Of a stretch of 13,496 nt of DNA, positions 1 through 13,399 are shown in pieces. The position numbers were made by a program, and so were the translations under genes. This DNA is from Lachnospiraceae bacterium. Lineage in GTDB: Bacteria; Bacillota; Clostridia; Lachnospirales; Lachnospiraceae. Below the pieces are notes generated by a model. It saw only the letters and a list, made by a program, of their open reading frames with translations. It made no database searches and was not told where the DNA came from. Numbering within the stretch: position 1 is the stretch's first letter; the number at the start of each line of letters is the position of its first letter. The DNA lies in contig CABJAW010000033.1 of NCBI GenBank assembly GCA_902363665.1, forward strand, positions 1 to 13,496, in the 5' to 3' direction.

Positions 1-106
1 ACGAGGACTACGAGTCCCCTCTGGACATTTTGTTTGACCGTCTGGAGATGCGGGACCCGGACAGCATTGCCGTCAAGCAGTATCACATTTACAAGCAGGC
101 GGCAGG
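1..106 (+). pseudogene. VirD4/TraG-type conjugative coupling protein, 5' fragment interrupted by the element
   Basis: Frame 3 reads EDYESPLDILFDRLEMRDP, then through AVKQYHIYKQAAG, a stretch I recognise from VirD4-like coupling proteins of Firmicute conjugative elements. These are membrane ATPases that bring the relaxase-DNA complex to the type IV secretion channel. The gene starts before the window. Homology stops at the GG of 105-106, where the inserted element begins. The frame then runs about 39 codons into element sequence and stops at 222-224, overlapping the first 32 bases of the recombinase gene. The gene resumes at 13391. The interrupted product lacks its C-terminal part and should be inactive until the element excises. 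Seen: the split frame. Inferred: the protein identity, from recalled family sequence. Confidence 0.8.
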
Positions 107-112
107 TGTTGT
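99..112. other. Left attachment junction (attL), crossover GG at 105-106
   Basis: Coupling-protein codons gcg gca are followed by GG and then element sequence TGTTGTATGC. The matching right junction reads CGTCTCT-GG-AAAGACC. Taking GG as the crossover dinucleotide gives the empty site GCGGCAGGAAAGACC, which encodes A-A-G-K-T in frame. Tn4451 and Tn5397 use GA at this position, so GG would be a variant. Confidence 0.8.
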
Positions 113-117
113 ATGCT
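112..117 (+). promoter_or_regulatory. -10 half of the circle-junction promoter (TATGCT)
   Basis: TATGCT lies 5 bp inside the left crossover GG. In the excised circle it would sit exactly 17 bp downstream of TTGACT from the right end (13375-13380), facing the recombinase gene at 193. In the integrated state the hexamer at the -35 position is TTACAA (89-94), a poor match. A circle-dependent promoter for tnpX is known for Tn4451. Here it is inferred from sequence. Confidence 0.65.
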
Positions 118-158
118 TTAAGAGACTTATTCATCACGATATGAGTAAGTCTCTTAAA
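117..158. repeat. Large palindrome at the left end, probable recombinase binding site
   Basis: Perfect 13-bp arms TTTAAGAGACTTA (117-129) and TAAGTCTCTTAAA (146-158). A further 4-bp pairing, TCAT/ATGA (131-134 with 141-144), lies inside. The left arm contains the start of the terminal inverted repeat GACTTATTCATCA, so the site holds two inverted copies of its core. No run of T follows the second arm, so it is not a typical terminator, although an RNA hairpin here could still reduce read-through from the coupling-protein gene. Confidence 0.6.
124..136 (+). repeat. Left terminal inverted repeat, GACTTATTCATCA
   Basis: Matches the reverse complement of 13361-13373 (GACTTTTTCATCA) at 12 of 13 positions. 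Both copies begin 19 bp from their crossover GG. This mirror placement is what paired recombinase binding sites should show. Confidence 0.75.
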
Positions 159-192
159 ACATATAAGGCTACAAAGCAGAAAGGAGACCCCC

Positions 193-2061
193 ATGAGCAA
201 ACAGAAAATAACCGCCCTGTATGAGCGTTTGAGCCGTGACGATGAACTGCAAGGCGAGAGTAATTCCATATCCAATCAGAAAAAATTATTGGAGGAATAC
301 GCCGCACAGCAAGGCTTTACAAACTGTGTCCACTTTACGGACGATGGAATAAGCGGGACTTGTTTCGATAGACCCGGCTTTCTTGATATGATGCGGCAAG
401 TCGAAGCCGGAAATGTGGACTATCTGTGCATTAAGGACATGAGCCGTCTGGGGCGTGATTATCTCAAAGTCGGTCAGATTATGGAGATTTTACGCCAGAG
501 AGGTGTCCGTCTCATTGCCATCAATGACGGTGTGGACAGTGCCAGAGGAGACGATGATTTTACCCCTTTTCGCAATATCATGAACGAATACTACGCCAGA
601 GACACAAGCCGCAAAATCAAGTCCACTTTCAAGACCAAAGGCATGACAGGCAAGCATCTGACAGGGACGGTCATTTATGGTTATCTCTGGAATGAGACGA
701 GAGACCAATGGATTGTTGATGAATACGCCGCCGAGGTTGTCAAGCGTATTTTTGCTATGACGATTGACGGCTACGGACCGTATCAGATTGCAAAGAAGCT
801 GTCCGAGGACAAGATACTCATTCCCTCTGCCTACCTTGCACAGCATAACGAGGGCGTGAACAAAAACAAGACTTTCAAGGATGTGTACGGTTGGGGTTCT
901 TCCACTATCGTCAATCTGTTGGACAAGCGTGAATATCTCGGTCATACCGTCAATTTCAAGACCCGAAAGCACTTTAAGGACAAGAAAAGCCATTATGTCC
1001 CGGAGGACGAATGGACGATTTTCGAGAATACCCACGAAGCCATTATCAGCCAAGAGACTTTCGACCTTGCACAGAAAATCCGAAGCAAGGTCAGACGATA
1101 CCCCGATGGATGGGGCGAAGCTGCTCCCCTCACAGGCTTGCTCTACTGTGCCGATTGCGGCGGCAAGATGTATGTCCACCGCACTAACAACGGCAAGCGT
1201 ATCTCTCAATACACTTGCTCACAGTACACAAAAGTCCCTTGTGGAACGCTCTGCAAGACACAGCACCGTATCAATGAAGATGTGGTACTTTCCCTTGTCT
1301 CCGATATGCTCCGAGCCATAGCCGAGTATGCAAAGCATGAGCGAGCCGAGTTTGTCCGAGTGGTACAAGAAGCACAGTCCAGTCAGCAGACAAGCGAGGT
1401 CAAGAAGCAACGCACAAGGCTTGCTACGGCAAAACAGCGTGTTTCAGAACTGGAAGTTTTGCTCTGTAAAATTTATGAGGACAATGTATTGGGCAAGCTC
1501 CCCGATGCCAGATATGCCGTTCTGGATGCACAGTACGCAAAGGAACAGGCGGCACTTACCGCCGAGATTGCAACACTTGAAAAGGCTGTCGGAGATTATG
1601 AGAAGCATGAGAAATCCGCAGACCGCTTTATCGCTCTGATTGACAAGTATCAGAACTTCGACAAGCTGACAAATACCATGCTCAATGAGTTTGTCGATAA
1701 AATCCTTGTCCATGAGCGAGCCAGAAAAGGCAGTCGAGAGACTACGCAAGAGGTTGAAATCTTCTTTAACTTTGTCGGGCGTTTCGTCCCTCCGGCATTT
1801 GCCGAAGTGGAGCTTACACCGGAAGAATTAGAGGAAATCCGCAAGCGTGAGGAACGCAAGGACAAACTTCATCAGAACTACTTGAAGCGTAAAGCCAGCG
1901 GTGCCCAGAAGCGTTATGAGGACAAAATCAAGGCGGCAAAGAAAGCCGAGATGGACGAAAAGAAAAATGCCATTCGAGCCGAGGATATTGCAAGGGGCGT
2001 ATTTATCCCTGTCAGCAATCTTCCGAAGCGAGAACCACAGAAAGGAGCTATCACAGCATGA
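193..2061 (+). CDS. tnpX: Large serine recombinase (TnpX/TndX-like)
   Basis: Site-specific recombinase that excises and integrates the element through a Ser-linked intermediate. At 622 residues it has the usual length for large serine recombinases. The resolvase domain spans about 5-150, with catalytic Ser14 in YERLSRDD and the conserved stretches around MSRLGRDYLKVGQ and RNIMNEYYARDTSRK. A recombinase DNA-binding domain follows (about 165-280). A zinc ribbon comes next, with likely ligands C319, C322, C342 and C354. Beyond it are a coiled-coil stretch (about 375-475) and a Lys/Glu-rich tail. The ATG at 193 is chosen for AAGGAG at 181-186. The stop overlaps the next start (ATGA at 2058-2061). 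Expression probably rises in the excised circle through the junction promoter. While integrated, transcription entering from the coupling-protein gene could also drive it. Confidence 0.95.
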   Translation: MSKQKITALYERLSRDDELQGESNSISNQKKLLEEYAAQQGFTNCVHFTDDGISGTCFDRPGFLDMMRQVEAGNVDYLCIKDMSRLGRDYLKVGQIMEILRQRGVRLIAINDGVDSARGDDDFTPFRNIMNEYYARDTSRKIKSTFKTKGMTGKHLTGTVIYGYLWNETRDQWIVDEYAAEVVKRIFAMTIDGYGPYQIAKKLSEDKILIPSAYLAQHNEGVNKNKTFKDVYGWGSSTIVNLLDKREYLGHTVNFKTRKHFKDKKSHYVPEDEWTIFENTHEAIISQETFDLAQKIRSKVRRYPDGWGEAAPLTGLLYCADCGGKMYVHRTNNGKRISQYTCSQYTKVPCGTLCKTQHRINEDVVLSLVSDMLRAIAEYAKHERAEFVRVVQEAQSSQQTSEVKKQRTRLATAKQRVSELEVLLCKIYEDNVLGKLPDARYAVLDAQYAKEQAALTAEIATLEKAVGDYEKHEKSADRFIALIDKYQNFDKLTNTMLNEFVDKILVHERARKGSRETTQEVEIFFNFVGRFVPPAFAEVELTPEELEEIRKREERKDKLHQNYLKRKASGAQKRYEDKIKAAKKAEMDEKKNAIRAEDIARGVFIPVSNLPKREPQKGAITA

Positions 2062-2456
2062 ACGAACTGAAAGCGAGAATCCATGAAAACGGCATTGACT
2101 ATGTCCTTGTGGGAGATTACTATGTGCCGGATTTGAAGCTGCCGGAGGAAAAGCGACCTATCGGGCATTGGGGCAGACTTCACAAAGCCTATTTGCAGAA
2201 CTACCGCCCCACCGTTTACAACGAGCTTGTTTTGTCCTGTCGGCTTCATTCCGTCCTTGCGGATCTGAACGAACAGGCAAATGACCGCTTCTCTCTGATT
2301 ATGGAGCAGATGGCAAGAGCCGAGGGCGTGACAGAGCAAATGAAAGCGGAAAATCAGATGTTGTGGGTGCAGTCTATGAACTCTATCCGCAACCGAGCCG
2401 AGGAAATTGTCAAGCATGAAATGATTTACTGCCATTATAGCGGAGGGGGTGATTAA
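2058..2456 (+). CDS. tnpV: TnpV-like transposon-encoded protein
   Basis: A 132-residue protein resembling TnpV of Tn4451-family elements: an N-terminal part with GDYYVPDLKLPEEKRPIG, then HKAYLQNYRPTVYNELVLSC, then a helical C-terminal half (QANDRFSLIMEQMARAEGVT). Its ATG overlaps the recombinase stop (ATGA), with AAAGGAG at 2041-2047 inside the end of that gene, so the two are translationally coupled. This suggests an accessory role in recombination or its control, but I know of no established biochemical function. No membrane segment is visible. The family call rests on recalled sequence similarity; the coupling is seen directly. Confidence 0.85.
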   Translation: MNELKARIHENGIDYVLVGDYYVPDLKLPEEKRPIGHWGRLHKAYLQNYRPTVYNELVLSCRLHSVLADLNEQANDRFSLIMEQMARAEGVTEQMKAENQMLWVQSMNSIRNRAEEIVKHEMIYCHYSGGGD

Positions 2457-2738
2457 ATGATTATGGAAGCGATTTTCGGCGGCGATATGTACCCATTGGA
2501 GAACATTGTACCGCAACAGGACGGCTACAAGGCAGAGGTCAAAGCCATTGCCGACCTTATGGACGAACTGGCGAACAGGTTTTCAAAAGCTGACTTTTCC
2601 AAAGTGGAGGAGCTTCATCAGCGAATGACGATTATTCAGCAGTACGAAAGCACCGAGCATTTTAAGTGCGGACTGTCCACAGGATTGCTACTTATGAAAG
2701 AAGCCTATGAATATCCACTCAATCCCAAAGAGGATTAA
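2457..2738 (+). CDS. Small DUF6809-like protein of unknown function
   Basis: A 93-residue acidic protein. It starts directly after the TnpV stop (TAA at 2454-2456, ATG at 2457), with GGAGGGGG just upstream at about 2443-2450. The N-terminal part (EAIFGGDMYPLENIVPQQDG) is followed by two predicted helices, one with KAIADLMDELANRF and one with CGLSTGLLLMKEAYE. This arrangement resembles DUF6809 proteins, small proteins common in clostridial mobile elements. There is no signal peptide or membrane segment and no catalytic motif that I recognise. Its tight spacing makes it the third gene of the recombination operon, so an accessory role in the element's life cycle is possible. An in-frame second ATG at 2463 is a less likely start. 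Confidence 0.75.
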   Translation: MIMEAIFGGDMYPLENIVPQQDGYKAEVKAIADLMDELANRFSKADFSKVEELHQRMTIIQQYESTEHFKCGLSTGLLLMKEAYEYPLNPKED

Positions 2739-2778
2739 AAAAACAAGGTCTGAACCCGACAATTTAATACCGTAATTC

Positions 2779-2821
2779 AAGCGGCAAGTGTTTCGTTCTT
2801 CGTGAAATGCTTGTTGCTTTT
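2779..2821 (+). terminator. Hairpin terminator after the recombination operon
   Basis: RNA stem 2781-2794 (GCGGCAAGTGTTTC) pairs with 2804-2817 (GAAATGCTTGTTGC) over 14 pairs, four of them G-U wobbles. The AA before and TT after extend it to 16, with a 9-base loop. TTTT follows at 2818-2821. All wobbles favour the + strand RNA. It lies about 40 bases after the stop of the 93-residue protein. It could instead act as an attenuator for the next two genes. Confidence 0.55.
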
Positions 2822-2860
2822 ATTAACCTTAAATCTTAATCTTTCAAGGAGGAACCCACT

Positions 2861-3139
2861 ATGAATATGAACATCAATGAAAAGAAAGCTCTTTATGCTT
2901 TTGGCTGTCCGAATCGAGAAGCGACCGTTCAACGCTTGCGTCTTGTGGCTGCACTTGCTCCCGACCCTGCGGCTAAGAAGCTGTTTTTCGCTCTGGCAGT
3001 CAAGTTGAATGACAAGGACTGTGACCGTTGGTATCGCTGTTTCTTCTACAACATGAGGGTGGAAATGGAACGCTTTGCTCACCACAAGTATGTGCCGGAC
3101 AGCTATCCTGTTCCGATTATGGAGGGGCTTTATGAGTAA
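2861..3139 (+). CDS. Conserved small protein of mobile elements, function unknown
   Basis: A 92-residue soluble protein rich in Arg, Cys and aromatic residues, with CPNREATVQRLRLVAALA near the start and DKDCDRWYRCFFYNMRVEME in the second half. The ATG at 2861 is preceded by AAGGAGG (about 2847-2853). I do not recognise a named domain. The paired C..W..C..FF pattern could be structural or metal-binding, but that is speculation. Its last 8 bases overlap the next gene, so the two are translated together. Proteins like this pair occur between the recombination and mobilization genes of clostridial elements, as far as I recall. No transmembrane segment is visible. Confidence 0.7.
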   Translation: MNMNINEKKALYAFGCPNREATVQRLRLVAALAPDPAAKKLFFALAVKLNDKDCDRWYRCFFYNMRVEMERFAHHKYVPDSYPVPIMEGLYE

Positions 3140-3422
3140 GCTGACGAAGTATGAGAAAGAAACAATCGTCCTGTTTAATGAAGCAGACGAAGAAGCTCAT
3201 ATCCAGACTTACAATGCCGGACTTCGGAAACGCCTTGAAGCGTTCAGCAAGAAGTACCCCGACCTCTGCCGTTTGGATATGAGTATGGGGCAAGGCGGTG
3301 TGTCCTATTGGATTGACAAGTCCAGATTGTCTATCCGCTTTCAGCCGCCCATGAGCGAGGAACGCAGACGAAAAGCAAGCGAATTGGCGAAGCAAAACGG
3401 TTTTAACGGTCAGAACGGATAA
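3132..3422 (+). CDS. Conserved small protein of mobile elements, function unknown
   Basis: A 96-residue charged protein beginning MSKLTKYEKETIVLFNEADE. The ATG at 3132 is chosen because GGAGGGG lies at 3120-3126 and the first bases overlap the end of the previous gene; a longer frame from 3075 lacks such a site. The N-terminal pattern, TKYE-ETI--FNE followed by a basic helix (RKRLEAFSKKYPD), is one I recall from small proteins carried by clostridial conjugative elements. They are sometimes given unconvincing chaperone-type names in databases. The C-terminal tail is basic (EERRRKASELAKQNG). No function is assigned. Confidence 0.7.
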   Translation: MSKLTKYEKETIVLFNEADEEAHIQTYNAGLRKRLEAFSKKYPDLCRLDMSMGQGGVSYWIDKSRLSIRFQPPMSEERRRKASELAKQNGFNGQNG

Positions 3423-3444
3423 TGTAGCTTTTCGGGTCTGTTTG

Positions 3445-3482
3445 CGGTCAAAATGTCGGGTCTGTACCCGATGTTTTGACTG
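3445..3482 (+). terminator. Long hairpin after the small-gene pair, probable terminator
   Basis: RNA arms 3445-3461 and 3466-3482 form 17 consecutive pairs, three of them G-U, closed by a CTGT loop. The core reads TCGGGT-CTGT-ACCCGA. TTTT lies within the second arm, and the following bases (TTACATAT) are only moderately T-rich, so termination strength is uncertain. The hairpin sits 23 bases after the stop at 3422 and before the cargo promoter, a sensible place to insulate the two. Confidence 0.5.
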
Positions 3483-3567
3483 TTACATATCGTCAAGGTA
3501 TAAAGTCCTTACCTACCCAAAAAAGGAAAAGTATGCGTTATGGAGCTAATATGAACTACGAATTTAC

Positions 3568-3606
3568 CGCAAGAGTGTTGATTTATTCACACTTGCGTGA
3601 TATAAT
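3568..3606 (+). promoter_or_regulatory. Promoter with overlapping dyad for the regulator/two-component operon
   Basis: TTGATT (3578-3583), a 17-bp spacer and a perfect TATAAT (3601-3606) form a strong sigma-A-type promoter about 30 bases upstream of the XRE gene. An interrupted inverted repeat, CGCAAG(AG)TGT at 3568-3578 and ACACTTGCG at 3589-3597, covers the -35 and spacer. That position suits a repressor; autoregulation by the XRE protein is inferred. Confidence 0.75.
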
Positions 3607-3638
3607 AATAGAATATGTAAGCACAAGGAGGGTAAGCT

Positions 3639-3887
3639 ATGGCGGTAACATATAAAAAGTTGTTTCATTTAATGATTGACAAGGGTATGAGCAATGCGGA
3701 ATTGATGGAACAGGCAGGTTTTAGTGCCAACATCATAACCCGATTGAAACGAGATAATTACCTTTCCCTTGACACCATCGAAAAGATATGCAACACACTC
3801 CATTGCGGAGTTGATGATATTCTTGAATTTATACCTAACGAAAAAGGCAATGATGCCAGAAATCCTTTCAGCAAGGAGAATACATGA
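3639..3887 (+). CDS. XRE (Cro/CI-type) helix-turn-helix regulator, YozG-like
   Basis: An 82-residue DNA-binding protein consisting of a single HTH_3 domain. The recognition region is about residues 18-41 (SNAELMEQAGFSANIITRLK), followed by LSLDTIEKICNTLHCGVDDI, typical of short YozG-like regulators. The ATG at 3639 follows AAGGAGGG (3625-3632). It is the first gene of the cargo operon, and its stop overlaps the response regulator start (ATGA at 3884-3887). It may control the operon promoter through the dyad at 3568-3597; this link is inferred. The protein has no obvious ligand-binding domain, so the signal it responds to cannot be read from sequence. Confidence 0.9.
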   Translation: MAVTYKKLFHLMIDKGMSNAELMEQAGFSANIITRLKRDNYLSLDTIEKICNTLHCGVDDILEFIPNEKGNDARNPFSKENT

Positions 3888-4555
3888 TGAGTAAATTATT
3901 ATTAGTGGAGGATGACCAAAGTATCGTATCCTCATTATCGGACTATTTAGGAAATGAAGGGTTCAAAATCGAAAGTGCTTCCGGGCAAAAAGAAGCAATA
4001 GAAAAATTGGATAACGACCAATACGATATAGCCTTGGTGGATATTCAATTATCAAATGGAAATGGCTTTTCTGTTTGTTCTGCAATTAAAGAAAGAGGAA
4101 CTATGCCGGTTATTTTCTTAACGGCGTCTGATGATGAATATAGTGTTGTGGCAGGACTGGACATGGGAGCTGACGATTATATCAGTAAACCATTTAGACC
4201 AAGGGAGCTTCTTTCAAGGATCAACAGCGTATTAAGGAGAACTAAGAACACGCAAAACATTATCAGCTACCATGACTTAGTTGTGGACACAAATCAAGCA
4301 ACCGTGGTAAAAAACGGAACAGAGATTTTATTGTCTGCTATGGAATATAAGTTGCTGTTAGTCTTTTTGCGTAACAAAGGTATTGTCCTTTCTCGCAGAA
4401 GATTGTTGGAGCTTTTATGGGACACTACCGGAGAGTTTATCAATGATAATACGCTGACTGTTTACATGAAAAGGCTGCGTGACAAAATTGAAACAAATCC
4501 ACAGGAGCCGGAAATCATAATTACCGTTCGTGGGCTTGGCTATAAGGTGGGTTGA
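3884..4555 (+). CDS. OmpR/PhoB-family response regulator
   Basis: A 223-residue transcription factor. The receiver domain (about 4-118) has the acidic pair D10-D11, phosphoacceptor D53 (ALVDIQL), the LTAS threonine and the SKP lysine. The winged-helix DNA-binding domain (about 128-222) contains LSAMEYKLLLVFLRNKG and TVYMKRLRDKIE, ending in RGLGYKVG. The ATG at 3884 overlaps the XRE stop; ATG at 3887 is an equally possible start. AAGGAG lies at 3874-3879. The partner kinase follows after one base. A likely target is the ABC operon promoter, where direct repeats with 11-bp period sit over the -35 region (5592-5610). Confidence 0.95.
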   Translation: MMSKLLLVEDDQSIVSSLSDYLGNEGFKIESASGQKEAIEKLDNDQYDIALVDIQLSNGNGFSVCSAIKERGTMPVIFLTASDDEYSVVAGLDMGADDYISKPFRPRELLSRINSVLRRTKNTQNIISYHDLVVDTNQATVVKNGTEILLSAMEYKLLLVFLRNKGIVLSRRRLLELLWDTTGEFINDNTLTVYMKRLRDKIETNPQEPEIIITVRGLGYKVG

Positions 4556-4556
4556 T

Positions 4557-5564
4557 ATGGACTTTATCAGAAATAAAGAAGTTAAAAGGCAGATTGTTGT
4601 CAGCAGTATTCTTATTCTATTTTGGGGCGGCATTGGCATTATCGTTGATAGCAAAGCTGTGTGGATTGTTCTGTCGGCTATCATTTCATCAAGTGCAGTT
4701 TCCCTCTTTTTTACATATCAGAGATACAAGAAAATTGCTGATTTTAGTTTGCATATTGATAGGCTGCTGCATGGAGATGAAACGATTTCTTTTGGGCAGT
4801 TTCAAGAAGGCGAATTATCTGTTTTACATGATGAAATATCTAAGATGACAAGACGACTTATTGAACAGGCAGAAGCTCTGAAAATGGAGAAAGGTAATTT
4901 GGCGAATGCTTTAGCCGATATTTCACATCAATTAAAAACACCTTTGACATCGCTGAATATCCTAAATGCTTCTCTGTGTAATGAGGAACTGACTGACGAA
5001 GAAAGGTATGAGCTGATCCGCAAACAGACTATGCTCTTATCAAGAATGGAGTGGCTGATAGCCACACTTCTGAAAATATCCAAGCTGGATGCAGGAACGA
5101 TTACTCTAAAGCCACAGGAGATATACTTAAAAGATGTGGTAGAAAAAGCAATTCGTCCTCTGGAGATTGCGGCAGAATTAAAAATGCAGACAATAACGCA
5201 AGTGATTCCGGCAGAACTGAAACTTGCTCTTGATGCTGATTGGACTGCTGAAGCCTTGGGGAATGTAATTAAAAACTGTATCGAACATTCACCAGAGAGC
5301 AGCAGTATTGAAATCAAGGCAATAGAAAGACCTCTTTTGACACAGATCATTATAGCGGATAATGGAGCAGGTTTTCGGAAAAAGGATATACCGCATCTAT
5401 TTGACCGATTTTATCAAGGAAGTGGCTCTACAATCGGTAATGCCGGTTTGGGGTTGGCTCTGGCAAAAACAATCATCGTCAATCAGGGCGGCGTCATCCA
5501 GGCGAAAAACCGGAAGTCAGGCGGTGCAGAATTTGAAATCTGCTTTTATCGGGGGACTGCTTAA
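4557..5564 (+). CDS. Membrane sensor histidine kinase with very short external loop
   Basis: A 335-residue kinase that should phosphorylate the response regulator encoded just upstream. Two membrane helices (about 11-28 and 33-52) are joined by only a few residues (DSKA), so there is no external sensor domain. This is the architecture of intramembrane-sensing kinases such as BceS, which take their signal from a partner ABC transporter. A HAMP-like linker (about 54-110) precedes the H-box with His124 (SHQLKTPLTS). The ATPase domain has N236 and N240 (NVIKNCIEHS), DNGAG, FDRFYQGSG and GLGLALAK. The ATG at 4557 follows AAGGTGGG; an in-frame TTG at 4530 inside the regulator gene is less likely. 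Overlapping its stop is a terminator. Confidence 0.93.
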   Translation: MDFIRNKEVKRQIVVSSILILFWGGIGIIVDSKAVWIVLSAIISSSAVSLFFTYQRYKKIADFSLHIDRLLHGDETISFGQFQEGELSVLHDEISKMTRRLIEQAEALKMEKGNLANALADISHQLKTPLTSLNILNASLCNEELTDEERYELIRKQTMLLSRMEWLIATLLKISKLDAGTITLKPQEIYLKDVVEKAIRPLEIAAELKMQTITQVIPAELKLALDADWTAEALGNVIKNCIEHSPESSSIEIKAIERPLLTQIIIADNGAGFRKKDIPHLFDRFYQGSGSTIGNAGLGLALAKTIIVNQGGVIQAKNRKSGGAEFEICFYRGTA

Positions 5565-5578
5565 TGCAGCCCCTTTTT
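5551..5578 (+). terminator. Rho-independent terminator at the end of the kinase gene
   Basis: GGGG(A)CTGC (5552-5560) pairs with GCAGCCCC (5566-5573), with one bulged A and a TTAAT loop, followed by TTTTT (5574-5578). The kinase stop codon (5562-5564) lies inside the loop. It separates the regulatory operon from the transporter operon. Confidence 0.8.
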
Positions 5579-5634
5579 AAGTGACATTTTTGTAATGAAA
5601 AAGTAATGAAGCAGTCACTTGGCTTTGCTATACT
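5579..5634 (+). promoter_or_regulatory. Response-regulator-dependent promoter of the ABC operon
   Basis: GTAATGAA occurs at 5592-5599 and again at 5603-5610, an 11-bp period expected for tandem OmpR-family dimers. These repeats are flanked by inverted AAGTGAC (5579-5585) and GTCACTT (5614-5620). The -10 is TATACT (5629-5634). The -35 position has no good hexamer and is covered by the second repeat, as in activator-dependent promoters. The regulator is inferred to be the cargo response regulator. Confidence 0.65.
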
Positions 5635-5664
5635 GAATTGCAAAAATATATGGAGGAACTTTTT

Positions 5665-6345
5665 ATGGAAATATTAAGAGTAGAGAATATCTGCAAAACC
5701 TATGAAATGGACAATGCTCCTGTCCATGCTTTGTCAGATGTTTCTTTTTCCGTCGATAAAGGAGAGTTTGTTGCAATCATTGGAGCATCTGGGTCTGGCA
5801 AGTCTACCCTGTTGCACATTTTAGGTGGTGTTGACAGACCAACTTCGGGAAAAGTATTTGTGGATGGACAGGATGTTTATGAGCAAAACGAAGATGAATT
5901 GGCTGTATTCAGAAGAAGGCAGGTTGGGCTTGTCTATCAGTTTTATAATCTGATCCCGGTTTTGACTGTCGAGGAAAATATCACGCTGCCGATTCGATTG
6001 GATGGGCGTAAAATCAATAAGGAGCGTTTGAAAGAACTGCTATCCACGCTCAAACTGGTAAAGCGTAGAAAGCACCTGCCAAGTCAGTTATCCGGCGGTC
6101 AACAACAAAGAGTGGCAATCGGACGAGCGTTGATTAACGCACCTGCGATTATCCTTGCGGACGAGCCGACGGGAAATCTGGACACGGAGAACACAAGGGA
6201 TATTATGAAACTTCTGCGTGAATCCAATGAAGTCTATCGCCAGACAATGATCCTGATTACCCATGACCGTGAAATCGCAATGCAGGCAGACCGTATTCTG
6301 GAAATTCAGGATGGCAGACTTGTGAGGGATGAGGTGATACGCTGA
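5665..6345 (+). CDS. ABC transporter ATP-binding protein (MacB/LolD/BceA type)
   Basis: A 226-residue ATPase that powers the permease encoded next. Motifs: Walker A GASGSGKST (40-48), Q-loop Gln92 (YQFYNL), signature LSGGQQQR (142-149), Walker B ILADEP with D166 and E167, and switch His200 (ITHD). Length and motifs fit the family that drives FtsX-type permeases in antimicrobial-peptide resistance, lipoprotein release or macrolide export. The ATG at 5665 is chosen for GGAGG at 5652-5656; a frame from 5638 has no ribosome site. Its TGA shares one base with the permease ATG (6345), so the two are translationally coupled. Confidence 0.95.
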   Translation: MEILRVENICKTYEMDNAPVHALSDVSFSVDKGEFVAIIGASGSGKSTLLHILGGVDRPTSGKVFVDGQDVYEQNEDELAVFRRRQVGLVYQFYNLIPVLTVEENITLPIRLDGRKINKERLKELLSTLKLVKRRKHLPSQLSGGQQQRVAIGRALINAPAIILADEPTGNLDTENTRDIMKLLRESNEVYRQTMILITHDREIAMQADRILEIQDGRLVRDEVIR

Positions 6346-8849
6346 TGAATATGATTTTCACGCTTACACTCAGGAATCTGCTGTCGAATAAAAAGCGTAC
6401 CCTACTCACACTTTTAACCATTCTTTTGTCAATCAGTATGATAACCGCTATTCTCTGTGGGGGATGGTCGTTGGTTGATTTTTTGAAAGAGAAAGAAAAA
6501 GTGTATGGTGGCGATTATGACTACTACATGGAGGATTTGACTTGGGAGCAGGTTCAAGAGCTATATAGTCAAAACAATGTAGGCGAGGTTTCGCTTCTCC
6601 GCTTTGCCGGAAACAGTTTTTACGGGGAGAAATCCAACAGTACAATGCTCTCCGTTGGCGAGATTGACGAGAACTTTACCCAAAGATTTTCGTTAAATCA
6701 GTATTTGCTTGCGGGGCGTTTCCCGCAAGATGAAAATGAGCTTGTTATTTCAGAATCTTTTTTGAAGAAAAACAATATGAACACAGAGATTGGAGATACG
6801 ATTTCTTTAACCCTTGGTTCAAGAATTTGGGATGAATATAATGCCCAGCTTTCCGGGCTGACAAATTATAGGGGCGAAGAAGAAAGTTTCGTTCCAACGA
6901 AAGAGAAAGCGTATGTAGTTGTTGGTATTCTGTCAGATGTGAATGACTCAAAAATCGCAGCAAACTATAATGCCTTTGCAGGCGTTGACAAAACGGCATC
7001 CGATTTTGCTGCGTATGTCAAGGCAAAGAATTTATCCAATTCGATCTATACAGAAGCCGAAGAAGTGGCTGCGGCAGTAGACAGTCATGTAGCAAAGTTT
7101 CATTCTGAACTGTTAGTCTATCATGGAATTACCGGCGGCAAAGGAGCTGCCAAACTGATTGCTTTGGTAGTCATGGTCATTTGCCTTTTGATGGCTGCAT
7201 CCGCTTCAATGATCAGCAACGCCCTCTCCATTTCCTTGCAGGAACGAATTAAGCAGATGGGAATGTTATCCAGTATTGGAGCCACAAAAGGGCAAAAACG
7301 CCTTAGTGTATATTTAGAAGCCTTTCTTTTGGGTGTGGTAAGCATACCTTTGGGATTGGTTGTCGGCATACTGCTGTCTGCTCTGTTGTTAAGTGTGGTC
7401 AGGGCAGCTTTTGGAGAAACATTCACTTTTGGCATTGTAGAACTGTCCTTAAAGGTAAACGGACTTATCCTACTCGTCAGCGGATTATCCGGCATTGCTT
7501 CTTTGTACTTCGGAAGCAGAAAGCCTGTGAAGCAAGCTGCTAAAATTACAGTTATTGAAGCTATCCGCCAGTCTAACAATGCGGTATCAAAAAAGAAATT
7601 CCGTGATGGAAAAATCGTTTCTTTGGTTTTTGGCATTTATGGTTCGCTGGCAGCTAAAAATATTAAGCGTAATCCAAAACGCTTCCGAGCAATTACTGGC
7701 TCTATTTTCTTGTCGGTGGTAATTGCCCTTTCCTTATACAGTTTGTCTGATTTTATGCTTTATCAGACATCCTTGGACATGAAGGAGGACGGTTCCTGTT
7801 ATACTGATGTGATTTCGACGATTCAATACAAAGATATTCCTACCGCAATCGGGGCATTATCGGATGAAAATATCACTGCGGATGTTTCCTATTCTTTTCA
7901 GCGATATATGACTGCTGAATTTTCGCAGGAACAAATCAATCCTGATATGCAGGGATATTTTATCAATGGTACGAAAGCAGAGGTATATGTCGTAGGACTG
8001 GACGAAGAACATTTTACTTCCTTTTGTGAGGAAAATGGCTTTCATATTATGACTGGCAGCTCCAATCGTGGAATCCTGCTCAATCAGACAATGGGATATT
8101 ATAATGCGGGTCAAAATCGAGTGATTGCAGGCTCCCCGTTTCTTATTGAACCGGGAACTGAAATCATTCCGTTGGGGGCATCCGAGGATGCCTTGCCGAT
8201 TATCGTGGAAGAAATCGTTTCAGAAGAAAATGCAAATATCCAATCCATGTTTGTGAGAGATCGAGCTGTCCTCATTGTGCCTTTAAGTTATTTTAACTGG
8301 CTGATAGATGATAACGCCTATGTGGAAATGAGAATACAGACAGCACAGCATAAAGAAGCAATGGACTGTCTGGCTGACAGAGGATTTCCGCAAACTGTGG
8401 ACATTGCAGCCGCAACGAATAATTCCAGACAGGTATATACGATTGCAAAACTGGTAATCTGCCTGTTCTCGATCCTGATGACGGTTATTATCAGTTTGAA
8501 TGTTTGCAACACTATCTCAAATACAATTCATTTGAGAAGAAGCGAATTTGCTGTTCTGCGTTCTGTTGGTATGACTGCCAAAGGATTGAAATGTACGCTA
8601 TTGCTTGAAGCTGTTTTGTACGGCGTAAAAGCATTGGTTCTTGCGTTGCCTGTGAGCTTTTTGATTCATTGTGCCATCTACTACTTCATATCGTCGGGTA
8701 TGACACCATTTGCTTTTTATATCAACGGTGGTATTTATGCTCTTGCAGTTCTGGCGGTCGGTGCTATGGTATGTATCGCTATGCTGTTTGCTGTCAGAAG
8801 CGTATCAAAGGTGGAAATTGTAGAGGAACTGAAATTGAGCAATATGTAA
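6345..8849 (+). CDS. FtsX-type ABC transporter permease with duplicated MacB-like halves
   Basis: An 834-residue membrane protein made of two similar halves. Half one: membrane helix about 18-40, an external domain about 41-265, then three helices (about 270-293, 325-350, 368-388) with the FtsX signature around ISLQERIKQMGMLSSIGATK. Half two: helix about 448-470, an external domain about 475-695, and three helices (about 699-722, 750-775, 790-815) with HLRRSEFAVLRSVGMTAKG. This gives eight helices and two large external domains. BceB-type peptide sensors have ten helices and one large external domain, so this is not a plain BceB. With the loop-less kinase and regulator nearby, detoxification of a cell-envelope-active peptide is a reasonable but unproven role. 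Confidence 0.92.
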   Translation: MNMIFTLTLRNLLSNKKRTLLTLLTILLSISMITAILCGGWSLVDFLKEKEKVYGGDYDYYMEDLTWEQVQELYSQNNVGEVSLLRFAGNSFYGEKSNSTMLSVGEIDENFTQRFSLNQYLLAGRFPQDENELVISESFLKKNNMNTEIGDTISLTLGSRIWDEYNAQLSGLTNYRGEEESFVPTKEKAYVVVGILSDVNDSKIAANYNAFAGVDKTASDFAAYVKAKNLSNSIYTEAEEVAAAVDSHVAKFHSELLVYHGITGGKGAAKLIALVVMVICLLMAASASMISNALSISLQERIKQMGMLSSIGATKGQKRLSVYLEAFLLGVVSIPLGLVVGILLSALLLSVVRAAFGETFTFGIVELSLKVNGLILLVSGLSGIASLYFGSRKPVKQAAKITVIEAIRQSNNAVSKKKFRDGKIVSLVFGIYGSLAAKNIKRNPKRFRAITGSIFLSVVIALSLYSLSDFMLYQTSLDMKEDGSCYTDVISTIQYKDIPTAIGALSDENITADVSYSFQRYMTAEFSQEQINPDMQGYFINGTKAEVYVVGLDEEHFTSFCEENGFHIMTGSSNRGILLNQTMGYYNAGQNRVIAGSPFLIEPGTEIIPLGASEDALPIIVEEIVSEENANIQSMFVRDRAVLIVPLSYFNWLIDDNAYVEMRIQTAQHKEAMDCLADRGFPQTVDIAAATNNSRQVYTIAKLVICLFSILMTVIISLNVCNTISNTIHLRRSEFAVLRSVGMTAKGLKCTLLLEAVLYGVKALVLALPVSFLIHCAIYYFISSGMTPFAFYINGGIYALAVLAVGAMVCIAMLFAVRSVSKVEIVEELKLSNM

Positions 8850-8891
8850 TCATTCAATCTAACAAAGCAACTGAAACGGAGGTAATAGAAA

Positions 8892-9254
8892 TTGCGTAAA
8901 AAGAAACTGGTAAAGAGAGTTGCAGGCATTGCTTTGACTGTTGGTGTAGTTATACTTGCCATTGTATGTGTCGGTAAAGTAAATCGCATTCAGAACGAAA
9001 AAGATATTATTGGCACATGGAAGGATACAAATGCGGAGGAGGTATTTACCTTTCAAGAGAACGGGGAACTTGCTGTGAGTAAAGATATGCCCGATTCGGG
9101 TCTGTCCTGCGGTAACGCATCTTATGGTTTTTCTTACTCGGATATAATCTGCGTGACACAGGGAGATAGTAGTGTAGAATTTGAGATAGAAGTAGATCAT
9201 GACGAATTGACAATCTTCTTTATGGGGCAAGAATACTTAGCGTTAGAAAGGTAA
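8892..9254 (+). CDS. Small membrane-anchored extracytoplasmic protein, lipocalin-like
   Basis: About 120 residues, starting at TTG (8892) with GGAGG at 8878-8882 and no suitable ATG. A basic N-terminus (MRKKKLVKRV) leads into one membrane helix (about 10-29), then an external domain of about 90 residues. IIGTWKDTNAEEVFTFQENGE and the alternating beta-strand pattern resemble small lipocalin-like or DUF5640-like beta domains. There is no lipobox, so it is anchored by its helix. It follows the permease by 42 bases and is the last gene of the transporter operon. It might be an accessory binding or immunity protein for the transporter; this is context-based only. It contains a single external Cys. 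Confidence 0.75.
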   Translation: MRKKKLVKRVAGIALTVGVVILAIVCVGKVNRIQNEKDIIGTWKDTNAEEVFTFQENGELAVSKDMPDSGLSCGNASYGFSYSDIICVTQGDSSVEFEIEVDHDELTIFFMGQEYLALER

Positions 9255-9302
9255 TGGTAGAAACTCTCTTGTTTCGTAAAAACTGAATAGAATGAACAAA
9301 CC

Positions 9303-9336
9303 AAAGGCGACTAACCGTAAAAAGTTGGTCGCTTTT
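9303..9336 (+). terminator. Hairpin terminator of the ABC operon
   Basis: AAAGGCGACTAAC (9303-9315) pairs with GTTGGTCGCTTTT (9324-9336) over 13 pairs, two of them wobbles, with an 8-base loop (CGTAAAAA) and TTTT at the end. It lies about 50 bases after the last cargo gene. Confidence 0.7.
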
Positions 9337-9454
9337 GCTTTGCTCATTTGCAAAGCGGATGTGTCGGAAACGGCATATCCGAAAAGTGGAGAAATCCGAT
9401 TTGACGAAATTGGACTTCTCCATTTTTTTGTGAAAGTCTCCGATGGAGAGTTTC
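9337..9454 (+). other. Run of four adjacent hairpins, candidate structured RNA or terminator cluster
   Basis: Nearly back to back: (a) GCTTTGC/GCAAAGC (9337-9343 with 9350-9356). (b) 9356-9366 with 9371-9381, 11 pairs with two G-U, capped by GAAA, a GNRA tetraloop. (c) 9383-9402 with 9407-9426, 20 positions with two G-U and one mismatch, with T7 at 9423-9429, a strong terminator shape. (d) 9432-9441 with 9445-9454, 10 positions with one mismatch. The wobbles are possible only in + strand RNA. No convincing protein is encoded here. Confidence 0.5.
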
Positions 9455-9519
9455 GCAAAAACCGATGGACTGCAAATGTCGGCAGCTGACGATGTGAAGC
9501 AGTTTATCGGGCAGGAGTA

Positions 9520-9693
9520 CAGAGGGCGGCAAGCCCTTTGTGCATGGGTACAGGGAATGCAATATCCCTGTGCAGGTCAAGGGCGGCAGCCTTGCCCAGT
9601 TAAGTGGCGTTTCGCCACTTAGTACTGGGTATTACTTGTCGCAAAATTGCAGCAAGGATGGCAGCTTCGCTGCCCCTTTCCCCTGCGGGGAAA
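9520..9693. other. Probable origin of transfer (oriT), hairpin-rich region upstream of the relaxase
   Basis: Hairpins in order: 9520-9527/9533-9540; ACAGGGA/TCCCTGT (9550-9556/9565-9571); CAAGG/CCTTG (9578-9582/9590-9594); TAAGTGGCG-TTT-CGCCACTTA (9601-9621), extended by CCCAGT/ACTGGG (9595-9600/9624-9629); GGCAGC-TTC-GCTGCC (9660-9674); TTTCCCC-TGC-GGGGAAA (9677-9693). MobV relaxases usually have oriT with inverted repeats directly upstream of their gene, which fits. I cannot place the nick site. The first 40 bases of this gene-free stretch (9255-9302) and 9455-9519 show nothing clear. Confidence 0.55.
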
Positions 9694-9717
9694 ATCTGAA
9701 CGGAGGTTAGAAATGGT

Positions 9718-10953
9718 TTGAAATTAACAAGACACAACGGTCGCTCCGGCAAGCATGGCACTTACAACCCGAAGCACAATGACCGCACTTTTGATGTGAG
9801 CAACAGCGAACACATTGACGAAGAACGAGCCAAGCACAATGTCTATTGGGACTGCTTCAACGGCTATCGCACCTTTGCAGAGAAGCAAGTCCAGAGCGAG
9901 CTTGCAGACACTTTCGAGGAAGTGGAGGAACTGTTCTACTCCGCAAAATACGGTGCTTATGTCGAAGCACAGAACGCCAGAAACGATAAGAACAGGCACT
10001 CGGAACGCAACCGCACCACAACGGATTTGCTTAAAGACAAAAGGACTTGCCCGGAGGAAACCATCTATCAGATCGGAAAGATGGGCGACCATGTTTCGCC
10101 TGATGTTCTGCTGAAAGTCGTGACGGATTTCTTCGTGGAGATGGAACGGCGTTTCGGCTCTCATGTTCACATTCTGGATTGGGCATTACATCTGGATGAA
10201 GCGACACCGCACATTCAAGAACGCCATGTATTCGACTGTGAAAACCGCTACGGCGAGATTTGCCCACAACAGGAAAAGGCACTTGAAGCATTAGGCTTTG
10301 AACTGCCAGACCCCACCAAGAAGCAAGGCAGACACAACAACCGAAAAATGACTTTCGATTCTGCCTGTCGTGCCATGCTCTTTGATATTGCAAAAAGGCA
10401 TGGTCTGCATTTGGAGCAAGAGCCGGAATATGGAGGGCGAGCCTATCTTGAAAAACAGGACTTCATTCTTGCCAAACAAAAAGAGCAGTTGGAGGTACAG
10501 GAGCAGAGATTAGAGGAACTGACTTTGAAAATCGAGGATGTGGAAACGCTGATTGATGATGTTGCCGATATTGCCTATGACAAGGCGGTGGAGGTCGTGA
10601 CAGATACAGTCAGAGTGGAAACCCACAAGGAGGACATTCGGCTGATTGAGGAAACAAAGACATGGCTTCAATCGCCGGAACGCAAAGCACCGAAGAAAGA
10701 GCGTGACTATGCAATCAGCCGTTTGGATGGCGTGATTGGCAAAATCAAAAATGCCATGCAGTCTGCATTGCAGAAAATCCAGTCCAGACTTCTTTCGCCG
10801 GAGGTCAAGAAAACGAGCAAAGAGCAGATTAAGGAAAAGGTCAAGCCCTCCATCCTTGCCAGACTTGAAAGAAACAAGGAACTGGCAAAACAGGAAAATG
10901 AAGCGAGACGGAGCGAACACCGTCCGCACAAAAAACAGAATATGGAGCTTTAA
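9718..10953 (+). CDS. MobV-type (Mob/Pre) relaxase
   Basis: A 411-residue mobilization protein expected to nick oriT and pilot the single strand into a conjugation channel supplied by another element. The relaxase domain is about 1-240, with HVH (149-151) and the metal-site motif HLDEATPH (158-165). The C-terminal part is a long coiled coil (about 245-300) followed by a basic tail. The start is TTG at 9718: GGAGG lies at 9702-9706, an in-frame stop lies at 9697, and the nearby ATG at 9713 encodes only two codons before its stop overlaps this TTG. It matches the TnpZ position in Tn4451-like elements. In this family the second His of the usual H-x-H after TPH is replaced (TPHIQERH). A hairpin terminator overlaps the stop. 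Confidence 0.92.
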   Translation: MKLTRHNGRSGKHGTYNPKHNDRTFDVSNSEHIDEERAKHNVYWDCFNGYRTFAEKQVQSELADTFEEVEELFYSAKYGAYVEAQNARNDKNRHSERNRTTTDLLKDKRTCPEETIYQIGKMGDHVSPDVLLKVVTDFFVEMERRFGSHVHILDWALHLDEATPHIQERHVFDCENRYGEICPQQEKALEALGFELPDPTKKQGRHNNRKMTFDSACRAMLFDIAKRHGLHLEQEPEYGGRAYLEKQDFILAKQKEQLEVQEQRLEELTLKIEDVETLIDDVADIAYDKAVEVVTDTVRVETHKEDIRLIEETKTWLQSPERKAPKKERDYAISRLDGVIGKIKNAMQSALQKIQSRLLSPEVKKTSKEQIKEKVKPSILARLERNKELAKQENEARRSEHRPHKKQNMEL

Positions 10954-10994
10954 GGCACTTGCCATTTTCGATTTGAGAATGACAGGTGCTTTTT
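10952..10994 (+). terminator. Hairpin terminator after the relaxase gene
   Basis: AAGGCACTTGCCATTTTC (10952-10969) pairs with GAGAATGACAGGTGCTTT (10975-10992): 18 positions with three wobbles and one mismatch, a 5-base loop, and TTTTT at 10990-10994. It overlaps the relaxase stop codon. Since the primase follows at once, it may only attenuate. Confidence 0.6.
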
Positions 10995-11013
10995 CCATTT
11001 TGGGAGGTTGATA

Positions 11014-11634
11014 ATGAATGTATTTGAAGCAGTAAAGCAGTCGGTCACGACAAGGCAGGCGGCAGAGTTTTACGGCTTTCGTGTAAACCGAGCCGGAATG
11101 ATAGCCTGTCCGTTTCACAATGACCGCACACCGAGCATGAAAGTGGATAAGCGTTTTCATTGTTTCGGCTGCGGTGCGGATGGGGATGCCGTTGACTTTG
11201 TTTCCCGACTGTTTGAATTGCCGAGCAAAGAAGCCGCTATGAAACTGGCTGACGATTTCGGTATCGCTTATGACCGAAACGGCAAGCCGTCCATCGTGGC
11301 AAAAATCCGAGAGCCTACCGCCAAACAGAAGTTTGAAGCGGAGGAAAAACGGTGCTTTCGTGTGCTGTCCGATTACTTCCACAAGCTCCGAGCGTGGGAA
11401 AAGGACTATGCACCGAAGCAGCCAGAGGACGAATGGCATCCGCTATTTACAGAAGCCTTGATCAAGAGAGATTATATTGAATATCTCCTTGATATTTTGA
11501 TTGACGGAACACTTGAAGATAGAAAGGCACTTGTAGCCGAGCAAAGAAACGAGGTGATGAAACTTGAACGAAGATTTGCAGACAGCCGCCAGAGAGGAAA
11601 TTCGAGACCGATTAGAACTGACACAGCAAGGTAA
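11014..11634 (+). CDS. CHC2 zinc-finger primase-like protein
   Basis: A 206-residue protein with an N-terminal DnaG-type zinc finger: C32-P-F-H35 and C50-F-G-C53, within IACPFHNDRTPSMKV and RFHCFGCGADGDAVDF. This domain binds single-stranded DNA at primase start sites. The catalytic Toprim domain of full DnaG is absent. The rest (about 90-206) is helical and charged, so it may act with a partner rather than prime alone. The ATG at 11014 is chosen over TTG at 11008 because GGGAGG ends at 11007. The last 71 bases overlap the VapE gene, linking the two in expression. The role is probably in copying the transferred strand or the excised circle. Confidence 0.88.
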   Translation: MNVFEAVKQSVTTRQAAEFYGFRVNRAGMIACPFHNDRTPSMKVDKRFHCFGCGADGDAVDFVSRLFELPSKEAAMKLADDFGIAYDRNGKPSIVAKIREPTAKQKFEAEEKRCFRVLSDYFHKLRAWEKDYAPKQPEDEWHPLFTEALIKRDYIEYLLDILIDGTLEDRKALVAEQRNEVMKLERRFADSRQRGNSRPIRTDTAR

Positions 11635-12916
11635 GCCTGCGAATACCGCCATGAATTACAAGACGGTATTTCAGAATGACCCTCTACTGAAAGGTGCTAT
11701 CCGCAAAAATCTGTTGACGGAACGCACCGACATTGTAAAGCCGCTTGGTTGGTATCGTGAAAGCTCCACTCTGACCGATGTGGATATTAAATATCTGCTT
11801 CTCTACTTTGAAGAACACTACGGCTTGACGGTTGAGAAGAAAATCGAGGATGCCGCATTGGTTATTGCCAACGAAAACCGCTACCACCCTGTCTGCGATT
11901 TTCTGAACGGCTTGGAGTGGGACGGACAGGAACGCATACGCTTTTGTCTGCACCGCTTTCTTGGGTCGGATGCCGATGATTATACCTATGAAGCCTTGAA
12001 GCTGTTTCTGCTTGGGGCAATCAGCCGAGCCTTTAAGCCGGGGTGCAAGTTTGAAGTCATGCTATGCCTTGTCGGAGGGCAAGGAGCCGGAAAGTCCTCT
12101 TTCTTCCGTCTGCTTGCGGTCAAGGACGATTGGTTTACCGATGACCTTAAAAAGCTGGATGATGAAAATGTGTACCGCAAAATGCAAGGGCATTGGATAA
12201 TCGAGATGTCGGAGATGATAGCCACAGCCAATGCAAAGAGTATTGAGGAAATCAAGTCCTTTTTGAGCAGACAGAAAGAGACCTACAAAGTCCCCTATGA
12301 GACACATCCGGCAGACCGCAAGCGACAATGCGTGTTTGGCGGTTCGTCAAATACTCTGGACTTCCTACCCCTTGACCGCACAGGCAACCGCCGTTTCGTG
12401 CCGGTCATGGTTTACCCCGAAAGAGCCGAGGTGCATATCCTCGACAATGAGGAAGAATCCAGAGCCTACATTCATCAGATGTGGGCAGAAGCAATGGCGA
12501 TCTACCGAAGCAGAGACTTCAAGCTGCGGTTTAGCCCGACAATGAATGAGTATCTGAAAGCACATCAAAGGGAGTTTATGCCGGAGGACACCAAAGCCGG
12601 ACAGATACTTGATTATCTGGACAGCTACACAGGCAATGCCGTCTGCTCCAAACAGCTTTACAGAGAAGCATTGGGGCATGAGTATGACGAGCCGAAGCAA
12701 TGGGAACTGCGAGAGATAAACGACATTATGAACAATGTTGTCAAAGGTTGGAAGTCTTTCAGCAATCCGAGACACTTCCCGAAGCCGTATCTTCGTCAGA
12801 AAGGTTGGGAGCGTGAGTTGCCCGACAACGGAGAAGCTGACAACGGAGACGGAAGATTTATTCCTCTCTCCGATGCGGAGCTTGAACAGATGGAACTGCC
12901 GGAGGGATGGCGATAG
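11564..12916 (+). CDS. VapE/VirE-type P-loop helicase-like replication protein
   Basis: A 450-residue protein of the virulence-associated E family, related to superfamily 3-type helicases found with primases in mobile elements. An N-terminal domain (about 1-150) with NDPLLKGAIRKNLLTERTD precedes the ATPase core: Walker A GGQGAGKSS with Lys177 and Ser178, HWIIEMSEM as Walker B region, and GSSNTLDFLPLDRTGNRRF carrying the sensor Asn and Arg finger candidates. The start is TTG at 11564 with GAGGTG at 11551-11556; ATG at 11651 would cut conserved N-terminal sequence. It overlaps the primase gene by 71 bases in another frame. Near the C-terminus two 11-bp repeats encode DNGE/DNGD and contain the GACAAC motif of the downstream repeat region. 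Confidence 0.9.
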   Translation: MNEDLQTAAREEIRDRLELTQQGKPANTAMNYKTVFQNDPLLKGAIRKNLLTERTDIVKPLGWYRESSTLTDVDIKYLLLYFEEHYGLTVEKKIEDAALVIANENRYHPVCDFLNGLEWDGQERIRFCLHRFLGSDADDYTYEALKLFLLGAISRAFKPGCKFEVMLCLVGGQGAGKSSFFRLLAVKDDWFTDDLKKLDDENVYRKMQGHWIIEMSEMIATANAKSIEEIKSFLSRQKETYKVPYETHPADRKRQCVFGGSSNTLDFLPLDRTGNRRFVPVMVYPERAEVHILDNEEESRAYIHQMWAEAMAIYRSRDFKLRFSPTMNEYLKAHQREFMPEDTKAGQILDYLDSYTGNAVCSKQLYREALGHEYDEPKQWELREINDIMNNVVKGWKSFSNPRHFPKPYLRQKGWERELPDNGEADNGDGRFIPLSDAELEQMELPEGWR

Positions 12917-13139
12917 AAAATTGCTATCCTGTTGTCAGCTTGTTGCCGAGCCGGTTGTCAATCCCGTTGTCGGGCAAAATCCGAAAAAGCCTTGTCAAGA
13001 CTGGACTTTTCTCTCTCTGACAACCTTGACAACCAAGATTTCAAAGAAAAAGTAAATAGTAAGCAATAAGAGCCGCCCGATAAGATAAAAGGTTTTTGAA
13101 TGTCCGTTGTCAGGACTTCGTTGTCAGCCTTTCCTTGTC
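12737..13139. repeat. GTTGTC repeat cluster, possible replication origin or regulatory site
   Basis: GTTGTC occurs at 12737, 12931, 12954, 12966, 13106 and 13120, and its complement GACAAC at 12824, 12839, 13019 and 13028. Near copies are GTTGCC (12942) and CTTGTC (12991, 13134). A longer unit TTGTCGGGCA appears at 12967 and 13135 and inverted at 12819-12828. GACAACGGAGA is repeated at 12824 and 12839. The gene-free part is 12917-13168. Repeats next to a primase/helicase pair suggest iterons, but no binding protein is known. Confidence 0.5.
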
Positions 13140-13168
13140 GGGCATTTTTCATTCACAGGAGGTATTGA

Positions 13169-13357
13169 ATGACAGAAAACAGAAACACAGCAGCACAGAC
13201 CACCACCCAGCACACCGCACCCACCGTCAGAAAGCAGATAAACGGCACGACCTATATCGTCCGTGTCCACTTCAACGAGAACGCCAGAGAGACAATGGAG
13301 GACAAAATCAAGCGTCTGCTTCGCAACGAGATTCAGCAAAATGTAACTTGTTTGTGA
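13169..13357 (+). CDS. tnpW: TnpW-like transposon-encoded protein
   Basis: A 62-residue protein resembling TnpW of Tn4451-family elements: a Thr/Gln-rich N-terminus (TAAQTTTQHTAPTV), then a conserved core KQINGTTYIVRVHFNENA, then a helix ETMEDKIKRLLRNEI. The ATG at 13169 follows AGGAGG (13157-13162). It is the last gene, ending 34 bases before the right crossover, the usual TnpW position. The function is unknown; small size and location at the end suggest an accessory or regulatory role. The final residues (QQNVTCL) run into the end of the element, so the tail is likely element-specific. Confidence 0.85.
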   Translation: MTENRNTAAQTTTQHTAPTVRKQINGTTYIVRVHFNENARETMEDKIKRLLRNEIQQNVTCL

Positions 13358-13360
13358 ATT

Positions 13361-13373
13361 TGATGAAAAAGTC
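13361..13373 (-). repeat. Right terminal inverted repeat, GACTTTTTCATCA on the - strand
   Basis: Its reverse complement matches the left repeat (124-136) at 12 of 13 positions and starts 19 bp inside the right crossover GG, mirroring the left end. A small palindrome AAAAGTC-CTT-GACTTTT (13367-13383) overlaps it, paralleling the palindrome at the left end. Confidence 0.75.
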
Positions 13374-13374
13374 C

Positions 13375-13380
13375 TTGACT
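13375..13380 (+). promoter_or_regulatory. -35 half of the circle-junction promoter (TTGACT)
   Basis: TTGACT points out of the right end. In the circular form the 10 bases to the crossover, the GG and 5 bases of the left end make a 17-bp spacer to TATGCT (112-117). In the integrated state the position 17 bp downstream falls in coupling-protein DNA (GACCGC, 13396-13401... region), which holds no -10-like hexamer. Confidence 0.65.
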
Positions 13381-13383
13381 TTT

Positions 13384-13399
13384 CGTCTCTGGAAAGACC
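13384..13399. other. Right attachment junction (attR), crossover GG at 13391-13392
   Basis: Element sequence CGTCTCT meets GG and then AAAGACCGCC of the coupling-protein gene. It is the counterpart of the left junction at 105-106. Confidence 0.8.

Follow-up and report, generated by a model that had tools for sequence, protein, structure and literature searches.

A putative junction promoter for the recombinase gene tnpX in an integrative mobilizable element of a Lachnospiraceae virD4/traG gene

Introduction

The Clostridium elements Tn4451 and Tn4453 encode a TnpX-type recombinase and tnpV, use a 2-bp crossover and have a promoter for tnpX at the joint of the circle, and tnpW is present in elements of the Tn4451 type. 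The junction promoter in the circular form of Tn4451 is said, going by its title, to be the subject of the work of Lyras and Rood in 2000. Here, a stretch of 13,496 nucleotides from a Lachnospiraceae bacterium (contig CABJAW010000033.1 of assembly GCA_902363665.1, referred to as the window) is analysed, which, as judged from its sequence, is an integrative mobilizable element (IME) of the TnpX/TnpV/TnpW type, with both ends present, within the virD4/traG coupling-protein gene of a conjugative element. A first-pass annotation of this DNA had proposed that joining the two ends in a circle builds a promoter for the recombinase, in the manner of Tn4451. The parallel holds for the logic of the joint promoter but not for the crossover dinucleotide, which the annotation had set apart from that of Tn4451: according to the available text of PMC5704250, Tn4451 uses GA and inserts at "numerous sites", whereas the elements considered here use GG and mostly a single target, virD4/traG. 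Thus, the window element shows neither the low target specificity nor the GA crossover of Tn4451 proper, and by description it is further set apart from Tn4451 and Tn4453 by a leader hairpin and by two-component and ABC-transporter cargo genes.

Other described elements are also inserted in traG. Tn6104, which is located within Tn6103 of Clostridioides difficile R20291, is a 15.6-kb IME in a conjugative element, whose circle has been detected by PCR; it resembles the window element in its TnpX- and TnpV-like genes, its two-component system, its ABC transporter and its 2-bp repeats (PMC3158075, in the sections available), and it is listed as occupying an internal traG site (PMC5704250, likewise). 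Compared by description, Tn6104 differs in carrying sigma-factor-like genes, and the same sections of PMC3158075 mention no tnpX promoter. In streptococci, IMEs with a serine recombinase are inserted in traG of integrative and conjugative elements (ICEs) of the Tn5252 type (PMC5357655 and PMC5704250, available parts), and the authors of PMC5357655 have already proposed that excision follows the induction of conjugation. No junction promoter or leader structure is described for these IMEs in those parts of the two papers, and the word "promoter" does not occur in the main text of PMC5357655. On the available descriptions, Tn6104 and the streptococcal traG-site IMEs appear to be the nearest to the window element in anatomy.

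A different arrangement is found in ICEKp1 and ICEclc, which encode tyrosine integrases. As described in the accessible portion of PMC13023037, their integrase gene is read from a host promoter in the integrated state and from a promoter at the far end in the circle, with stem-loops in the leader, but the target is adjacent to a tRNA gene and a single end contains the complete promoter, so that none has to be built by joining the ends.

A predicted promoter at the joint of the circle

The element measures 13.3 kb and is bounded by the dinucleotide GG at positions 105-106 and 13391-13392. The hexamer TTGACT (13375-13380) lies inside its right end and TATGCT (112-117) inside its left end, both on the plus strand, as are the two virD4/traG parts, tnpX, tnpV, tnpW, the ribosome-binding site, TTTACA, the arm motifs and the leader hairpin described below. 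When the ends are joined at GG, the predicted joint reads ...TTGACTTTTCGTCTCTGGTGTTGTATGCT..., with the two hexamers separated by 12 bases from the right end (13381-13392) and five from the left (107-111); the 17-bp spacer and the direction, on the plus strand towards the tnpX start codon (ATG at 193), are both as the first-pass annotation had them. According to the mechanism proposed here, TnpX would excise the element through a 2-bp crossover at GG, and in the circle a sigma-A promoter with a spacer of 17 bp would arise, its -35 coming from the right end and its -10 from the left; this promoter would drive tnpX and possibly tnpV. Integration would split this promoter, save where the host DNA offers a -35 of its own, as it does in the window, and tnpX of the integrated element would be transcribed mainly by read-through of the traG operon. 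A junction promoter for tnpX at the circle joint is well supported by comparison, and the full reading, from the TnpX element in virD4/traG and its excision at GG to the joint-built promoter, is given a probability of roughly 0.8.

The joint was scored with an assumed set of promoter weights, and the start site was placed at an assumed distance from the -10. With these weights, the junction-spanning score of the window ends was matched by dinucleotide-shuffled ends with P = 0.009, and all eight end pairs tried gave P values of 0.0003-0.0097 (8/8).

For the comparison, a contig-level scan of genomes returned 390 TnpX relatives, the best 80 of which were taken as loci, many of them ending before the right end, and 35 extra stretches were drawn from genomes, eight of which (L188 and L191-L197) lack a complete element, defined as both ends in one stretch. 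After removal of three duplicate rows (L005/L190, L025/L186 and L026/L189), 46 rows left 43 distinct complete elements, the window included, all at the same codon of virD4/traG. The spacing is 17 bp in each of these 43 elements, which represent one lineage, and the junction -35 is kept in all of them. The hexamers are TTGACT/TATGCT in 20, TTGACA/TATGCT in 17, TTTACA/TATGCT in five and TTGACA/TAAAAT in one (L163). Three further lineages, those with both ends found among 16 loci listed, have a TnpX with 41-43% identity to that of the window and 34-42% among themselves, and their ends form TTGACA-17-TATAAT (L059), TTGACA-17-CATAAT (L069) and TTGACA-17-TAACCT (L006). Merging of identical joints left 25 of 49, which represent the 43 site-sharing elements and the three elements of other lineages, and the top-scoring promoter crosses the junction with exactly 17 bp in 25/25. 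The mean promoter score of the joints is 11.2, in comparison with 5.7 for the left junctions, 5.6 for the right junctions and 5.2 for the reverse strand of the joint. TTGACA is likewise present at the right ends of L018, L051, L053, L065 and L066, for which the right ends only were considered.

Several observations weigh against a joint promoter of this kind. Within the window, TATGCT agrees with TATAAT at only four of six positions, and the integrated TTTACA-18-TATGCT reaches in the promoter scan the same count of 9/12 matches as TTGACT-17-TATGCT of the circle. Among the relatives, the right integrated junction of L006b scores higher (12.4) than its joint (9.6), and because most joints share a common ancestry, the 25 distinct joints count as about four independent lineages. 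With regard to the circle itself, an exact search for the joint pattern of the main lineage retrieved it from none of the viral contigs and from none of the 20 genomes searched. The 8501-bp record OY725856.1 (L198) is labelled a circular plasmid, but its literal closure gives GGGG and a 19-bp spacer. This record starts and finishes with the GG of the element, and it has ends of 124-127 bases in common with six further records from the same organism. For this reason it was rejected as an excised circle and is read as a collapsed multi-copy repeat contig. Taken together with the comparison across four TnpX lineages, the earlier proposal of a joint promoter for the recombinase is well supported, with the reservation that the on/off contrast is weak at this particular insertion.

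Recombinase site, integrated transcription and the proposed joint promoter

The conservation of the joint could be that of a recombinase binding site (attP) alone, with the hexamers as its by-product. The ends do carry a mirrored motif, TGATKAANAAGTC, at -30 to -18 on both arms, with 11-12 of 13 matches in 11/11 main-lineage end pairs shown: in the window, the left arm motif GACTTATTCATCA (124-136; +18 to +30 from GG), a presumed TnpX contact, is the mirror of the right arm motif TGATGAAAAAGTC (13361-13373; -30 to -18 from GG), with 12/13 identical positions. In the stretch that separates the two arm motifs, the letters that do not vary across 19 main-lineage joints are TT.AC of the -35, TA...T of the -10, a GT..C within the spacer and a few isolated letters, and the invariance of GT..C also fits a binding site. 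However, the hexamers are found inward of the motifs, in a part of the arms that shows no mirroring (3-9 of 17 matches in -17 to -1), and the left end of L163, which differs from that of the window at 10 of its first 17 bases, keeps the T, the A and the final T of the -10 when compared by eye. Furthermore, the three other lineages lack the arm motif (2-7 of 13 matches) and still form TTGACA-17-(-10). A binding site as the sole cause of the conservation is consequently held to be quite improbable; presumably, the mirrored motif is the TnpX contact and the hexamers are the promoter. The first-pass annotation had also expected high recombinase levels in the circle, favouring re-integration. The joint promoter might act in this manner, but TnpX could equally shut it off, a possibility that arises because the promoter sits between the two presumed arm motifs.

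It could also be argued that tnpX is transcribed chiefly while the element is integrated, from TTTACA-18-TATGCT and by traG read-through, with little added by the circle promoter. The first-pass annotation had seen only TTACAA at the -35 position of the integrated left end; this hexamer (89-94) does stand at 17 bp, but the host virD4 DNA also offers TTTACA (88-93), 18 bp from TATGCT, and it is this sequence, equal to the circle promoter in its 9/12 matches, that makes the on/off contrast weak here. Additionally, tnpX lies downstream of the cut traG gene and in the same direction, an arrangement found in all 104 pairs of neighbouring tnpX and virD4 stretches examined, repeats included (same strand 104, opposite strand 0). 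In 17 of the 43 distinct complete elements, all of one leader type (L005, L190 and others), the TraG' frame is open and in frame into tnpX, so that a TraG'-TnpX fusion is possible in these, while in the leader type of the window the traG frame overlaps the start of tnpX out of frame. Nevertheless, TTTACA at 18 bp occurs in only 7 of 74 distinct combinations of flank and left end, the window among them, as against a junction -35 in 43/43 complete elements, and an element cannot select a hexamer that belongs to host DNA. In the weight matrix, the circle scores 10.7 and the integrated arrangement 9.3, a gap of 1.4 bits (the value of 9.3 comes from L007 and L169, both of which have TTTACA-18-TATGCT as well), and the contrast is larger at most other sites, with a median -35 score of -1.1 over the 74 left junctions versus 5.1-7.4 for the circle hexamers. 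Predominant transcription in the integrated state is hence regarded as unlikely, if somewhat less so than a mere binding site, and a promoter completed by the joining of the ends is preferred to both.

The leader hairpin

The leader of tnpX can fold into a hairpin of 25 pairs (109-166), formed by 109-115 with 160-166 and 117-134 with 141-158 and interrupted by one C.A mismatch (116/159). The -10 hexamer TATGCT falls within its 5' arm. A transcript from the junction promoter would start at about 123-125, inside this arm, and would therefore lose part of it. Folding of 107-176 gives -29 kcal/mol with a z of -8.2, and 21 of 22 distinct leaders have minimum free energies of -25.5 to -38.2 and z of -4.9 to -8.7, the energies being reduced to -8.3 to -17.7 upon removal of the first 17 bases. 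Covariation was analysed in 27 of 32 distinct leaders, from which four near copies (L014, L016, L063 and L077) and L020, which has no hairpin, were excluded: four pairs are altered on both sides (3/500 shuffles as high), in 17 such cells and with a score of 0.148 (0/500 for each). In L048, which is the same element as L171, and in L050, about 400 additional bases separate the leader from the tnpX match.

Two simple functions were considered and rejected. A terminator would call for a run of T after the stem, which only some leaders have and which is lacking in the window's type, and hiding of the ribosome-binding site (AAGGAG, 181-186) is not apparent, since its opening energy in the window is 2.6 for the read-through and 2.2 for the junction-started RNA. 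In 12 leaders deprived of the 5' arm, opening of this site was clearly easier in two (L059b and L069b) and harder in nine.

The hairpin could instead exert a control that depends on the state of the element, in which RNA reading through from traG would fold fully and then be halted, cleaved or used inefficiently, while the junction RNA would be spared. The stability of the stem in 21/22 distinct leaders, the covariation above shuffles and the TTTTT after the stem in the L031 leader type are consistent with this idea, as is the analogy with ICEKp1, in which leader stem-loops reportedly damp the host-driven int RNA and a 3'-end promoter takes over after excision (PMC13023037, accessible portion). 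Conversely, the hairpin is lost in L163/L020 (z -0.2), further pair types are no more frequent than in shuffles (7 vs 7.3; 473/500), the window's type has neither a T-run nor a hidden ribosome-binding site, and the position of the transcript start is a guess. Moreover, the covariation could also stem from a DNA dyad and amounts to few events on a tree. Such control is thus a tentative proposal, with the odds somewhat against it. Slightly less likely again is a left end that works as a two-in-one sensor of state, whose -10 letters double, in read-through RNA, as part of the 5' arm of a hairpin restraining tnpX, so that joining the ends would at once make the promoter and lift the brake by letting RNA begin within the arm. 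No report of a leader hairpin of this kind was found in the literature searched, which is not proof of its absence. The hairpin would be the novel part of this element, the joint promoter being a known logic in another element.

Anatomy and insertion site

The 5' part of the interrupted virD4/traG gene (3-106, frame EDYES...YKQAAG) ends at the GG crossover and runs in the direction of tnpX, and its 3' part resumes at 13391-13496 (GKTAKSIL...). The insertion point is at the GKTAKS codons, with flanks translating as ...QAAG / GKTAKSIL.... The same GG codon is the end point of 42 other distinct elements, and GG is present at both ends of all 43. The uninterrupted site is represented by 16 long virD4 frames with AGKT[AL]KS among the stretches examined.

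Inside the element, tnpX (193-2061) encodes a large serine recombinase of 622 amino acids with the Pfam domains Resolvase, Recombinase, Zn_ribbon_recom and DUF4368, and is followed by tnpV (2058-2456; Pfam TnpV); tnpW (13169-13357; Pfam TnpW) lies near the right end. Pfam also recognises a CHC2 zinc-finger product and one resembling VapE. Genes for an ABC transporter, for a histidine kinase and for a response regulator are indicated by matches that stay under the curated thresholds of individual families. With regard to a mobilization (relaxase) gene, the open reading frame at 9718-10953 has no Pfam or NCBIfam match, and PLSDB types records bearing relatives of the element as MOBQ.

At 19 loci, no virD4 match stands beside tnpX, which reflects partly other targets and partly diverged or cut virD4. 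Four relatives of the same recombinase (L191, L194, L196 and L003) have no adjoining VirD4 match, GG again precedes their left ends, and they seem to use secondary targets. Other TnpX lineages are inserted at different positions of the virD4 gene, and in L006, L059 and L069 one virD4 gene holds two different TnpX elements nested at separate sites. Relatives of this Firmicutes family were also found in three plasmid records of Campylobacter coli (L199 and L200 among the stretches), where they contain aminoglycoside phosphotransferase genes; the right end in L200 abuts a gene annotated as a UV damage repair protein.

Implications

The 17-bp spacing is fixed in the four lineages examined, and the junction-promoter logic of Tn4451 appears to recur in the TnpX elements that occupy coupling-protein genes of gut Firmicutes. 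The window element would thereby extend to another TnpX element a logic that is not in itself new. If transcription of the traG operon extends into tnpX of the integrated element, excision could be set off when the host conjugative element is induced. Should the left end truly act as a sensor of state, excision and re-integration would be governed jointly by this induction, by the brake and by the promoter at the joint. The arrangement may thus offer a concrete way to ask how passenger elements of this kind could register whether their conjugative carrier is active.

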